This document shows positions 1,669 through 31,598 of a stretch of 64,000 bases of DNA, piece by piece. Location of the stretch: assembly GCF_030813715.1 (NCBI RefSeq), contig NZ_JAUSUZ010000001.1:4526001-4590000 (forward strand), given 5' to 3'. This DNA comes from Catenuloplanes indicus (GTDB taxonomy: Bacteria; Actinomycetota; Actinomycetes; Mycobacteriales; Micromonosporaceae). Made by a program: the position numbers and the translations under genes. Position 1 is the first letter of the stretch. Each line of letters begins with the position of its first letter. The notes below the pieces were generated by a model, which was not told the DNA's origin, ran no database searches, and was given only the letters and a program-made list of their open reading frames with translations.

Positions 1669-2361
1669 TCAGGGCTTGACGGCACGGTGCAGCGCGACGA
1701 CGCCGCCGGTGAGGTTGCGCCAGGCCACCCTCGACCAGCCGGCCCGGCCGATCCGGTCGGCGAGCGCGGCCTGGTCCGGCCAGGCGCGGATCGACTCGGC
1801 GAGGTAGACGTACGCCTCCGGGTTGCTGGAGACAGCGCGGGCCACCGTCGGCAGGGAGCGCATCAGGTACTGCATGTAGACGCTCCGGAACGGGCCGTTG
1901 ACCGGGTGGCTGAACTCGCAGACCACCAGGCGGCCGCCGGGGCGCACCACGCGGGCCAGCTCGGCCAGCGCGCGGTCCACGTCGACCACGTTGCGCAGCG
2001 CGAACGAGATGGTGGCCGCGTCGAACGTCTCGTCCGCGAACGGCAGCGCCAGTGCGTCGCCGGCCAGCAGCGGCACGTCCGGGCGTACCCGGCGGCCGGC
2101 ACGCAGCATGCCGAGCGAGAGATCCAGGCCGACCGCGAACGCGCCGGACCGGCCCAGCTCCAGCGTGGAGACGCCGGTGCCGGCGCCCACGTCGAGCACT
2201 CGCTGACCCAGCTTGAGTTGCAGCGCGTCCCGCGTGGCGCGGCGCCAGCCACGGTCCTGCCCGAACGAGAGCACCGTGTTGGTCACGTCGTAGTTACGCG
2301 CCACGCCGTCGAACATCGAGGCGACCTCGTGGGGCTGCTTGTCCAAGTCTGCGCGGCTCAC
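1669..2361 (-). CDS. menG: Demethylmenaquinone methyltransferase
   Basis: A class I SAM-dependent methyltransferase of the UbiE/MenG family, 230 residues, the usual length. It carries out the last step of menaquinone synthesis, C-methylation of demethylmenaquinone. It begins [20 protein letters not shown], the typical actinobacterial MenG N-terminus, followed by the NYDVTN motif. The SAM-binding glycine loop [12 protein letters not shown] is near residue 55, and the later motif [10 protein letters not shown] also fits the family. The GTG at 2361 was chosen over an upstream GTG at 2385 because homology starts there and the upstream codon lies inside a terminator-like hairpin. The flanking reductase and mqnC belong to the same pathway. 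Confidence 0.93.
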
Positions 2362-2384
2362 GGGTCCCACTCTGCCAGAGGGCA

Positions 2385-2423
2385 CGAAAAAGCCGCAGAC
2401 CAGGCTCGCGCGTGGTCTGCGGC
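2385..2423 (-). terminator. Rho-independent terminator ahead of menG
   Basis: An 11-bp perfect inverted repeat, GCCGCAGACCA (2392-2402) with TGGTCTGCGGC (2413-2423), is followed on the minus strand by a run of five T residues (2387-2391). It would stop minus-strand transcription arriving from the LPXTG gene. It ends only about 25 bases before the menG start, so it could also act as an attenuator in the menG leader if menG is transcribed from the interval 2424-2610. Confidence 0.75.
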
Positions 2424-2611
2424 GTTCAATCTCTATATCAACGCCTCATTGGCGGGTCAGAGCATTATCTTCGGGGCCTCCGGTAACGATGCGGACTCGG
2501 CGGGACCCCGAAATCATGACGCTCATGCGACATTTCCCGGCGGTGATACCGCAGGTAGCGGTGCAATCCGCCCACTTGCGACACTACGTCGTCGGCCGAT
2601 GACCGGAAAGC

Positions 2612-4224: not shown

Positions 4225-5415
4225 TCAGTGCGCCTCGACGAGTGGCAGCGACCGGCCGGCGCCGCCGCCGGGCAGCGCGATCGACGAGAAGTGCGAGACG
4301 ACCCGGTCGTCCGTCGGGTCGTCCGCCGGCGTCCGGTGCACGGCCAGGTGGCGGTAGAGCGTGTCGCGCTGCGCCGGGATGCGGCCGGCGGACCGGATCA
4401 TCCAGATCAGGTCGTGCAGGTTCGACCGGTGCCGGGCACCGGCGGAGGAGATGACGTTCTCCTCCAGCATGATCGAACCGAGATCGTCCACGCCCATGTG
4501 CAGCGACAGCTGACCGACCTCCTTGCCGGTGGTCAGCCAGGACGCCTGCAGATGGTCCACGTTGTGGAAGAAGATCCGGGACATCGCGATGAACCGGAGG
4601 TACTCCAGCGTGGTGGCCTGTGTGCGGCCCTTGAGGTGGTTGTTCTCCGGCTGGTAGGTCCACGGGATGAACGCCCGGAAACCGCCGGTGCGGTCCTGCA
4701 CGTCCCGGATCATGGCGATGTGCTCCACCCGCTCCGCGTGCGTCTCGCCGGTGCCCATCATCATGGTCGCGGTCGACTCGATGCCGTGCCGGTGCGCGGT
4801 CTCCATGACCTCAAGCCAGCGCGCGCCGGACTCCTTGAGCGGCGCGATCGCCTTGCGCGGCCGCTCCGGCAGCATCTCCGCACCGGCACCGGCGATCGAG
4901 TCCAGCCCGGCCGCCTTGATCCGGAGGATCGCGTCCTCGATCGAGATGCCGTCGACCTTCGCCATGTGCAGGATCTCGGACGGGCCGATCGAGTGGATCA
5001 CCAGCTGCGGGTACGCCGCCTTGACCGAGGAGAACAGGTTCTCGTAGTAGTCGGTGCCGTAGTCCGGGTGGTGACCGCCCTGCAGCATCACCTGGGTGGC
5101 GCCCAGGTCGACGGCCTCGCCGCACCGGCGGAGGATCTCCTCCATCGGGTGCGACCAGCCCTCCTTGTGCTTCGGCGCGCGGAAGAACGCGCAGAACTTG
5201 CACGCGGTCACGCACACGTTGGTGTAGTTGATGTTGCGGTCGATCAGGTACGTGACGATCCCGTCCGGATAGCGCCGCCGGCGCACCGCGTCCGCGGCCT
5301 CGCCCAGCGCGTGCAGCGGAGCGTCGGTGTAGATGAGCAGCGCCTCCTCGGGCGTGATCCGCCCGCCGTCCGCGCCACGCTGCAGGATGTCGTCGATCTC
5401 CCTGTTCACCGTCAC
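4225..5415 (-). CDS. mqnC: Cyclic dehypoxanthinyl futalosine synthase (radical SAM)
   Basis: A radical-SAM enzyme of the futalosine route to menaquinone. It cyclises dehypoxanthinyl futalosine. About 396 residues. The [4Fe-4S]-binding CxxxCxxC motif is intact in NVCVTACKFCAFF (about residues 67-80), after the family phrase ADGGRITPEEALLIY. The C-terminal half keeps the MqnC phrases WTYQPENN and LDYLR-like LEYLRFIAMSR. The GTG at 5415 was chosen because a TACGCT -10 hexamer (5422-5427) sits six bases upstream and no ribosome binding site is visible, which suggests a leaderless mRNA; a GTG at 5409 is an alternative. It is followed by its own terminator. mqnA lies 9 kb away on the other strand. 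Confidence 0.94.
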   Translation of the reverse strand: MTVNREIDDILQRGADGGRITPEEALLIYTDAPLHALGEAADAVRRRRYPDGIVTYLIDRNINYTNVCVTACKFCAFFRAPKHKEGWSHPMEEILRRCGEAVDLGATQVMLQGGHHPDYGTDYYENLFSSVKAAYPQLVIHSIGPSEILHMAKVDGISIEDAILRIKAAGLDSIAGAGAEMLPERPRKAIAPLKESGARWLEVMETAHRHGIESTATMMMGTGETHAERVEHIAMIRDVQDRTGGFRAFIPWTYQPENNHLKGRTQATTLEYLRFIAMSRIFFHNVDHLQASWLTTGKEVGQLSLHMGVDDLGSIMLEENVISSAGARHRSNLHDLIWMIRSAGRIPAQRDTLYRHLAVHRTPADDPTDDRVVSHFSSIALPGGGAGRSLPLVEAH

Positions 5416-14727: not shown

Positions 14728-15705
<978 letters not shown>

Positions 15706-30376: not shown

Positions 30377-30640
30377 TCAGCTCTTCGCGACCGGTTCTTC
30401 CTCTTCACCGGCGAGCGCGGCCCGGAGGCGGGCACGCTCGGCCTTCCGCTTGTCCGCACGTGCGGCCAGCGCGTTCGCCATCTCGTCCCGCCACTGGCCG
30501 AGCAGGAAGAACGAGGCGATCGCGGAGAGCAGCACCGCCGCGATCAACTTGAGGAAGATGTCCAGGTCGACGAACCACAGTGCCGCCAGGAACGCCAGGA
30601 AGAGACCGATCCGGCCGGCCGTGTACTTGATCGCGGCCAC
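30377..30640 (-). CDS. DUF4229 small membrane protein
   Basis: An 87-residue protein with two closely spaced hydrophobic helices (about 10-25 and 29-47) and a charged C-terminal tail (ARADKRKAERARLR, then GEEEEP). It matches actinobacterial DUF4229 proteins, which I recall lying near menaquinone genes. Function unknown. It follows the MqnE-like gene by 52 bases on the same strand and is probably cotranscribed with it. The GTG start at 30640 has GAGG nearby. Confidence 0.8.
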   Translation of the reverse strand: MAAIKYTAGRIGLFLAFLAALWFVDLDIFLKLIAAVLLSAIASFFLLGQWRDEMANALAARADKRKAERARLRAALAGEEEEPVAKS

Positions 30641-30692: not shown

Positions 30693-31358
30693 TCAGGCCC
30701 ACACCCGCTGCGGTACGGCCCGGCGGTCGGCGAGCGGGACCGGGGCGTCGTGCTCGCGGACCACGCCGAAGGACGCGTCCCGCTCGACCGGCCGCAGCCC
30801 GGCGTCCCAGATCAGCTCCAGCAGCTCCTCGCCCGCGTCCAGTTCGACCGCGCGCTTGTCCGCGTTGCGCCACCGCTGCTCCGGGGCGTTCTCGTCGTCC
30901 TTCGCGCCGGACGGGATGCCGGCCAGGTCGTCCGCGCCGTAGTTGAGCAGCAGCTGGACCAGTGCCGGGCCGTGCGAGGCGTAGTCGGCGGTGAGGTGCA
31001 CGGCCGGGTCGAGCAGCAGGCGGACCACCGCGAACGTGCGCAGCGCCTCGGCCGGCGCACCGTCCTCTTTGACGAGCGTGACGGACGACGGTCGGAGATC
31101 TTCACGGAGATTTAGCACCGCGTCCACCAGGTGCGCGGCGGGGTCCTCCGCCCGGCCGTACCGGATCTCGTGGGCGTCGATGGAACGATCGGCCGCGAAC
31201 GTCACCCGGTCGGCGTACGACTCGGCCCGGCGGTGGTGGGCCAACCTGCCCAGCCAGGCGAGTTCATCCGTGCCGAAGAGGGCAATTCCGTCATCTCGGG
31301 TGAGCCGTTCCCCGGCGTGGACCTTCTGCTCCAGCGTGCGCTTCAACCCGGAATCCAT
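30693..31358 (-). CDS. MqnE-like protein lacking the radical-SAM core
   Basis: A 221-residue protein whose two ends look like aminodeoxyfutalosine synthase (MqnE). The N-terminus, MDSGLKRTLEQKVHAGERLT followed by DDGIALFGTDELAWLGRLAH, matches the MqnE start. The C-terminus, from ALRTFAVVRLLL through GADDL to LIWDAGLRPVERD, matches the MqnE end. The central part of about 200 residues with the CxxxCxxC cluster motif is missing, and there is no Cys in the protein at all. It therefore cannot be a radical-SAM enzyme. The ATG at 31358 follows TACGCT by six bases (leaderless). It may be a regulatory or structural paralogue, or a decayed but in-frame copy. The homology call is from memory of the family, not a search. 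Confidence 0.65.
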   Translation of the reverse strand: MDSGLKRTLEQKVHAGERLTRDDGIALFGTDELAWLGRLAHHRRAESYADRVTFAADRSIDAHEIRYGRAEDPAAHLVDAVLNLREDLRPSSVTLVKEDGAPAEALRTFAVVRLLLDPAVHLTADYASHGPALVQLLLNYGADDLAGIPSGAKDDENAPEQRWRNADKRAVELDAGEELLELIWDAGLRPVERDASFGVVREHDAPVPLADRRAVPQRVWA

Positions 31359-31598
31359 GCTCAGAGCGTACGTGGCCGGAATCTGAACGACCGCCCGGCT
31401 GCAACCGATCTCACGTCGTGGCCCCGCGGCGTTGTTTCCGATTTATCCGTTCAAATCGCTCGAATCTCAGGGAGTTCACAGCGTCGGATAGTCATTGACC
31501 GATCGACACCTCGTGGGAGTGTGAGGTAGACCCTTAGGGGGAACGGGTCGAGCCGGTGCCGTCCATAATGATCGTCCGGCGAGCACGTGGGGATTGGT

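Follow-up and report, generated by a model that had tools for sequence, protein, structure and literature searches.

A core-less remnant of the radical-SAM enzyme MqnE persists under purifying selection at the mqnE locus of Catenuloplanes and other Micromonosporaceae

MqnE, the aminofutalosine (aminodeoxyfutalosine) synthase modelled by TIGR03700 and represented by the structure PDB 6xi9, belongs to the same radical-SAM family as MqnC and CofH, the latter corresponding to the C-terminal half of FbiC. In other bacteria the futalosine pathway to menaquinone (vitamin K2) has drawn discussion as a target for drugs. Pseudoenzymes are catalytically dead relatives of enzymes that are retained for binding or scaffolding. 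The part of PMC4746308 available to us, which deals with quinone pathways, predicts a replacement for MqnD (mqnZ) and none for MqnE; the situation described there resembles the present one in that one missing step implies another enzyme. We found no description of a core-less MqnE in the listed titles and abstract openings of the MqnE and futalosine literature.

The window analysed here is a stretch of 64,000 nucleotides from Catenuloplanes indicus. Its minus strand carries, at positions 30693-31358 (stop codon included), an open reading frame of 221 amino acids that starts with ATG, has no internal stop and encodes no cysteine, and thus no CxxxCxxC motif. The best family match is NCBIfam TIGR03700 (E = 8.4e-22), in two stretches, one per end: residues 101-198 align with profile positions 260-349, the better stretch, and the second covers profile positions 2-57. 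Profile positions of about 58-259, the TIM-barrel core, are unmatched, and the score of 77.5 bits does not reach the curated cut-off of 434.55. The MqnE structure 6xi9 (E = 5.3e-11) matches the identical two ends (query residues 8-57 and 103-204). Secondary matches were to MqnC (TIGR03699, E = 3.4e-13) and CofH (TIGR03551, E = 1e-4); MqnC and FbiC each have a gene of their own here, and their CxxxCxxC motifs are present. The remnant shares with MqnE the orthologous locus, the N-terminal part, the C-terminal region and the tail, both terminal regions being specific to the family, and it lacks the DGSVVEYKITHD stretch of MqnE as well as the cluster motif and the core. It is therefore an MqnE by descent and not a member of the enzyme family, three of whose defining features are absent.

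Alignment with an intact MqnE of 389 amino acids shows that the remnant keeps residues 1 to about 56, a STMLYGHIEEPRHRVDHVLRLRE-like piece and the C-terminal residues, about 115 in number, and that positions of about 57-213 and a short stretch past alpha6 are missing. The N-terminal part (residues 1-57, LTRDDGIALF to DELAWLGRLAHHRR; 31188-31358, minus strand) corresponds to profile positions 2-57 and is conserved across remnants. The next stretch (residues 58-87; 31098-31187, minus strand) holds the junction and the sole part of the core that is left, in which AHEIRYGRAEDPAAHLVDAVLNLRE of the remnant aligns with STMLYGHIEEPRHRVDHVLRLRE of intact MqnE; in the usual naming of the fold this piece is beta6/alpha6. 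The C-terminal part (residues 102-221; 30696-31055, minus strand) runs from PAEALRTFAV through QLLLNYGADDL and LIWDAGLRPVERD to RRAVPQRVWA, and covers profile positions 260-349. Its tail, RRAxPQxVW, is retained in the remnants and has counterparts in intact actinobacterial MqnEs, including those of other families of the order. An AlphaFold model built from 3 sequences only had a pLDDT of 39.0 and a pTM of 0.29, values too low to support a stable fold. The initial annotation had described an intact, cysteine-free frame with MqnE-like ends, the loss of the radical-SAM core and a break at the start of the cluster-binding loop, and the analysis agrees on each point, the break falling immediately ahead of HLNLTNVCSASCAYCSF. 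It had also described about 200 residues as swapped for a short bridge; that 'bridge' is MqnE's own beta6/alpha6 piece, and the loss amounts to about 157-170 residues.

The remnant sits at the mqnE locus, as first proposed, because it is followed by a DUF4229 gene (30377-30640, minus strand; PF14012, E = 2.8e-13) and faces a divergent NlpC/P60 gene (31605-33155, plus strand, start codon unsettled; PF00877, E = 8.3e-24), as intact mqnE is in related genomes. BLAST clustering of the ORFs around mqnE placed an NlpC/P60 cluster at 22 of 22 loci and a DUF4229-like cluster at 21, and in a second neighbourhood clustering both lay beside mqnE in 12 of 12 genomes. A leaderless promoter had also been suggested. 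The promoter-like -10 element TACGCT (31365-31370, minus strand) spans positions -12 to -7 relative to the ATG, and TANNNT occurs at -12 in all five Catenuloplanes genomes, a placement consistent with a leaderless promoter; as a motif match it is not proof of transcription. By a motif count without a control for chance, TANNNT lies upstream of 30 of 34 mqnE or remnant genes, with none within 60 bases in the other four; it stands at -13 in five of six genomes of genus g47 and in two intact genes, and at -28 to -57 in most others.

The host genome (9.25 Mb, 2 contigs) has a completeness rating of 100%. A six-frame search with TIGR03700 (E <= 0.001) detected only MqnC, two FbiC stretches and the remnant, and no second MqnE. 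A working MqnE had been expected elsewhere in the genome and the stub had been called a paralogue; we find instead that it is the orthologue, no other MqnE having turned up in that search. Genes for MqnA, MqnB, MqnC and MqnD were all identified. Within the window, mqnA (14878-15648, plus strand, the stretch matched by PF02621) and mqnC (4348-5382, minus strand, the stretch matched by TIGR03700, CxxxCxxC intact) are intact, as had been stated, and a UbiE/COQ5-family methyltransferase (1669-2445, minus strand; PF01209, E = 1.7e-56) possibly carries out the last menaquinone step.

MqnE scored over the cut-off in 121 of 150 Micromonosporaceae genomes and below it in 29. Two of the latter were incomplete (G009, 69%; G077, 82%) and were dropped, leaving 27, the least complete being G107 (89%). 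These comprise every sampled genome of genera g1 (5), g2 (1), g12 (4), g21 (1), g47 (6) and g51 (1), and part of g5 (2 of 5), g45 (2 of 14) and g48 (5 of 7). We read the chains of 25 of them (all except G015 and G102); all 25 are open frames, as the search required, and copies with a frameshift may have escaped it. In eighteen the core is gone entirely or almost so. Three lack CxxxCxxC with more of the core left: G024 has lost the CxxxCxxC loop and little more, G135 is without its CxxxCxxC, and in G108 the loss takes in roughly a third to a half of the core. A short chain in G084 (L291) keeps CPQRCAFC without the barrel. The chains of G051, G095 and G119 are full-length and divergent with CxxxCxxC present, and these MqnEs may still be active.

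Each of the five Catenuloplanes genomes sampled, and each of the six from g47, keeps a remnant. A name search of genome contigs returned three loci, the same remnant in Catenuloplanes japonicus (NZ_JNXY01000005.1) and two intact MqnEs of Pseudofrankia. Across the class, 54 of 246 genomes (three of them Micromonosporaceae) had MqnE over the cut-off; besides the host genome, two had an MqnC-like match without MqnE. One of these, G231 (family f30), carries an MqnE chain without CxxxCxxC, which is a loss outside Micromonosporaceae; the other, G310, is fragmented (560 contigs) and showed no remnant at E <= 0.01. Separately, G033, a genome of another family, encodes an MqnE remnant of about 70 residues (L127:3787-4155, plus strand) that consists of the N part and a short tail only; its MenD and MqnB are over the cut-off and it has no PF02621 gene. 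Two MqnE matches over the cut-off were found in each of G063, G098, G121 and G130 (g60) and in G179 (f30), perhaps reflecting a second naphthoquinone pathway.

Genes for the other early steps of the futalosine pathway are retained. Two PF02621 genes per genome, which we took as MqnA and MqnD, are present in 22 of 22 below-cut-off genomes of the family and 7 of 7 of a second set, and in three intact genomes of each set. Of 31 genomes, all but G050 had MqnB above the cut-off. All 20 remnant genomes compared encode MqnC with CxxxCxxC, and the 19 copies besides that of the window are 76-98.5% identical to it. The G050 MqnB (G050:C1:3917271-3917883) is split into two pieces in different open frames, as is one PF02621 gene of G094 (G094:C257:31695-32539), each by a frameshift or a sequencing error.

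On a tree of MqnA plus MqnC (29 rows, 20 labelled remnant, including the unread G015 and G102), a single clade of remnant genomes was rejected (AU p = 0.00174). The remnant state requires 4 changes; bootstrap trees need between 3 and 5, and the well-supported branches impose 2. Such counts are blind to loss versus regain. Genera g5, g45 and g48 each include both intact genomes and genomes with a remnant or degenerate gene. We read this as repeated loss of the MqnE core, rather than regain, since the remnants all lie at the same locus.

The remnant ends are under purifying selection that is weaker than on intact genes, and the core has been released. In ten remnant pairs, Nei-Gojobori dN/dS was 0.15-0.43, with upper 95% bootstrap limits of at most 0.63, compared with 0.05 and 0.08 for intact mqnE in two pairs by the same method. 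Both ends together gave 0.12-0.52 over all 22 remnant pairs. Core values were 0.01-0.10 in nine intact pairs and 0.40-1.04 in ten pairs among five degenerate g48 genes, indicating relaxation; the N parts (0.16-0.48) and C parts (0.26-0.67) of those five genes overlap this range, so that core and ends differ in degree. A few short remnant regions with few changes approach 1 (N part of G000/G003, 1.02, and of G087/G068, 0.86; middle piece of G155/G093, 1.08). Retention was scored in seven core-less lineages at positions where 18 or more of 19 intact chains share one residue (G012 and G021 were left out of this and the selection analysis). The mean fraction kept by the remnants was 0.68 for the N part (37 such positions), 0.54 for the C part (87), 0.22 for the beta6-7 part (50) and 0.02 for the core (126). 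Losses in the C part concentrate largely in KCFWVM and DGSVVEYKITHDADSYGTP, which probably line the active site. Of the two outcomes that the initial annotation had named as telling against it, neither was found: the protein resembles the MqnE profile at both ends, and it is neither confined to this strain nor free of constraint, yet selection is weaker than on intact mqnE. Its suggested dN/dS test returned purifying selection, which argues for the non-catalytic job it had proposed.

The MqnE remnant is real, recurrent and under selection, and is probably a pseudoenzyme. It resembles other pseudoenzymes in having lost its catalytic residues while the gene stays under selection, and differs from them in missing most of the fold and in having no active paralogue that we could find in the genome. 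Because the core is gone from the only MqnE gene while the other early pathway genes are in place, another enzyme probably carries out the MqnE step, and because what is left is still under purifying selection, it probably has a second job. We therefore favour, at somewhat better than even odds, the reading that the remnant is kept for a non-catalytic job and that its step of the futalosine pathway has passed to another, putative enzyme. What the mqnE orthologue has lost, in frame, is the barrel that binds the iron-sulfur cluster and the substrate; its N-terminal helices and beta6/alpha6 piece remain, as do its C-terminal region and tail. By this reading aminofutalosine would now come from an enzyme unrecognisable as MqnE. 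What remains would be the non-catalytic docking part of MqnE, retained for holding a partner. Candidates for that partner are one of the neighbouring Mqn enzymes, the small protein of the DUF4229 family and the new enzyme itself. The docking role may predate the losses, as the same parts were kept each time and are present in intact actinobacterial MqnEs.

The retained ends could instead be those of a slowly decaying pseudogene: a replacement arose, and mqnE erodes from the middle outwards, its ends persisting because time was short or because in-frame deletions are milder. Such decay would account for the weaker constraint compared with intact genes, for the few regions with dN/dS near 1, for a graded series of erosion in g48, for the nearly complete G024 gene that lacks its cluster loop and for the N part and short tail left in G033, a MenD genome. 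We nevertheless consider it rather unlikely, given that the upper limits stay below 1 in all ten bootstrapped pairs, that identical parts persist in lineages not forming one clade, and that no Catenuloplanes or g47 genome sampled has lost the remnant; the 25 chains read are also open frames, though open frames were sought. That MqnC took over the MqnE reaction, with the remnant assisting it, seems improbable to us. In G008 and the four g12 genomes no full-length member of the MqnE/MqnC/CofH family other than MqnC was found (E <= 0.001), and in G008, G054 and g12 MqnC is more divergent (76-80% identity to that of the window, against 83-88% in intact genomes), the g12 proteins changing 27-30 of 285 columns that are invariant in seven intact genomes. 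However, a single column of the MqnC alignment (A to S) tracks the remnant state, which makes such a takeover unlikely, and MqnC in nine other remnant genomes outside Catenuloplanes is 83.9-89% identical, as in intact genomes.

We regard as very improbable that the classical Men route supplies menaquinone, or that none is made, with the mqn genes serving something else. Catenuloplanes is described in chemotaxonomy as making menaquinone. Against this explanation stand the retained pair of PF02621 genes, MqnB and MqnC, and the distribution of MenD. No MenD over the cut-off was found in the 22 below-cut-off genomes of the family that were searched; the best match in the host genome scored 56 bits against 244.2, and G033 was the only one of 26 genomes to have it, in a search set without G084, G095, G108, G119, G135, G231 and G310 (the last two also lay outside the MqnB search). 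A split enzyme, with the missing core encoded elsewhere and joining the remnant, is scarcely credible: nothing beyond the gap itself speaks for it, the six-frame TIGR03700 search detected no free core in the genome, and none of the six radical-SAM genes without a counterpart in G013, described below, has a match to an MqnE model at E <= 1e-10 among the matches listed.

The host genome has 20 PF04055 matches, three of which are MqnC and the two halves of FbiC. Of the other 17 radical-SAM genes, the intact genome G013 carries orthologues of 11 (58-88% identity) and of none of the remaining six. The six encode a PflA, two FxsB-family proteins and an MSMEG_0568-family protein (over the cut-off), and a MoaA-like and a twitch-domain-like protein (both below the cut-off, the latter judged on 25 of 38 families). 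None resembles MqnE, and the census yielded no candidate for the new enzyme. An ancestral replacement shared with intact genomes would escape the comparison with G013; a comparison with G127 used 8 of 33 matches, and absence from that genome is uninformative.

Neighbourhood clustering likewise pointed to no replacement enzyme or partner: it revealed no cluster present in every remnant genome examined and absent from intact ones, whether around mqnE (22 loci), mqnE-mqnA-mqnC (12 genomes) or mqnB-mqnD (19 genomes). A cluster of 149-aa ORFs near mqnB-mqnD occurs only in the remnant or degenerate genomes G005, G008, G024, G050, G051, G093, G107 and G155, and two clusters near mqnE-mqnA-mqnC only in G000, G001, G004, G093 and G155; the compared stretches end at unequal distances, which allows for edge effects, and part of the clusters may consist of antisense shadow ORFs. 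About 6.6 kb separate mqnD from mqnB in G155 and G093 (L261, L262), genes that are adjacent in G013, and several ORFs in this gap cluster with ORFs of the intact genome G048.

More tentatively, and with rather less than even confidence, we suggest that actinomycetes hold an unrecognised aminofutalosine synthase, non-homologous to MqnE, and that this enzyme has repeatedly removed the need for MqnE catalysis, the remnant being a docking or activating subunit either of it or of the Mqn enzymes that remain. The findings locate a single missing step in a respiratory-quinone pathway: across a sizeable part of one family of actinomycetes, something else would have to do the chemistry of MqnE. Genera g48, g45 and g5, which have both states, offer ready pairs for a whole-genome hunt for the new enzyme, and the remnant itself would reveal the parts of MqnE that serve a purpose beyond catalysis.

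We also identified, in G093 and G155, a CofH-like protein from which the CxxxCxxC loop is cleanly missing (L122:5544-6545, plus strand, and a reverse frame of L123). The two copies are 81% identical, with a dN/dS of 0.25 (one pair), and the loss is of the same kind as that of MqnE in the same genomes. Elsewhere, G155 has a CofG-like ORF with CxxxCxxC, near ORFs that resemble FbiA and FbiB by eye.
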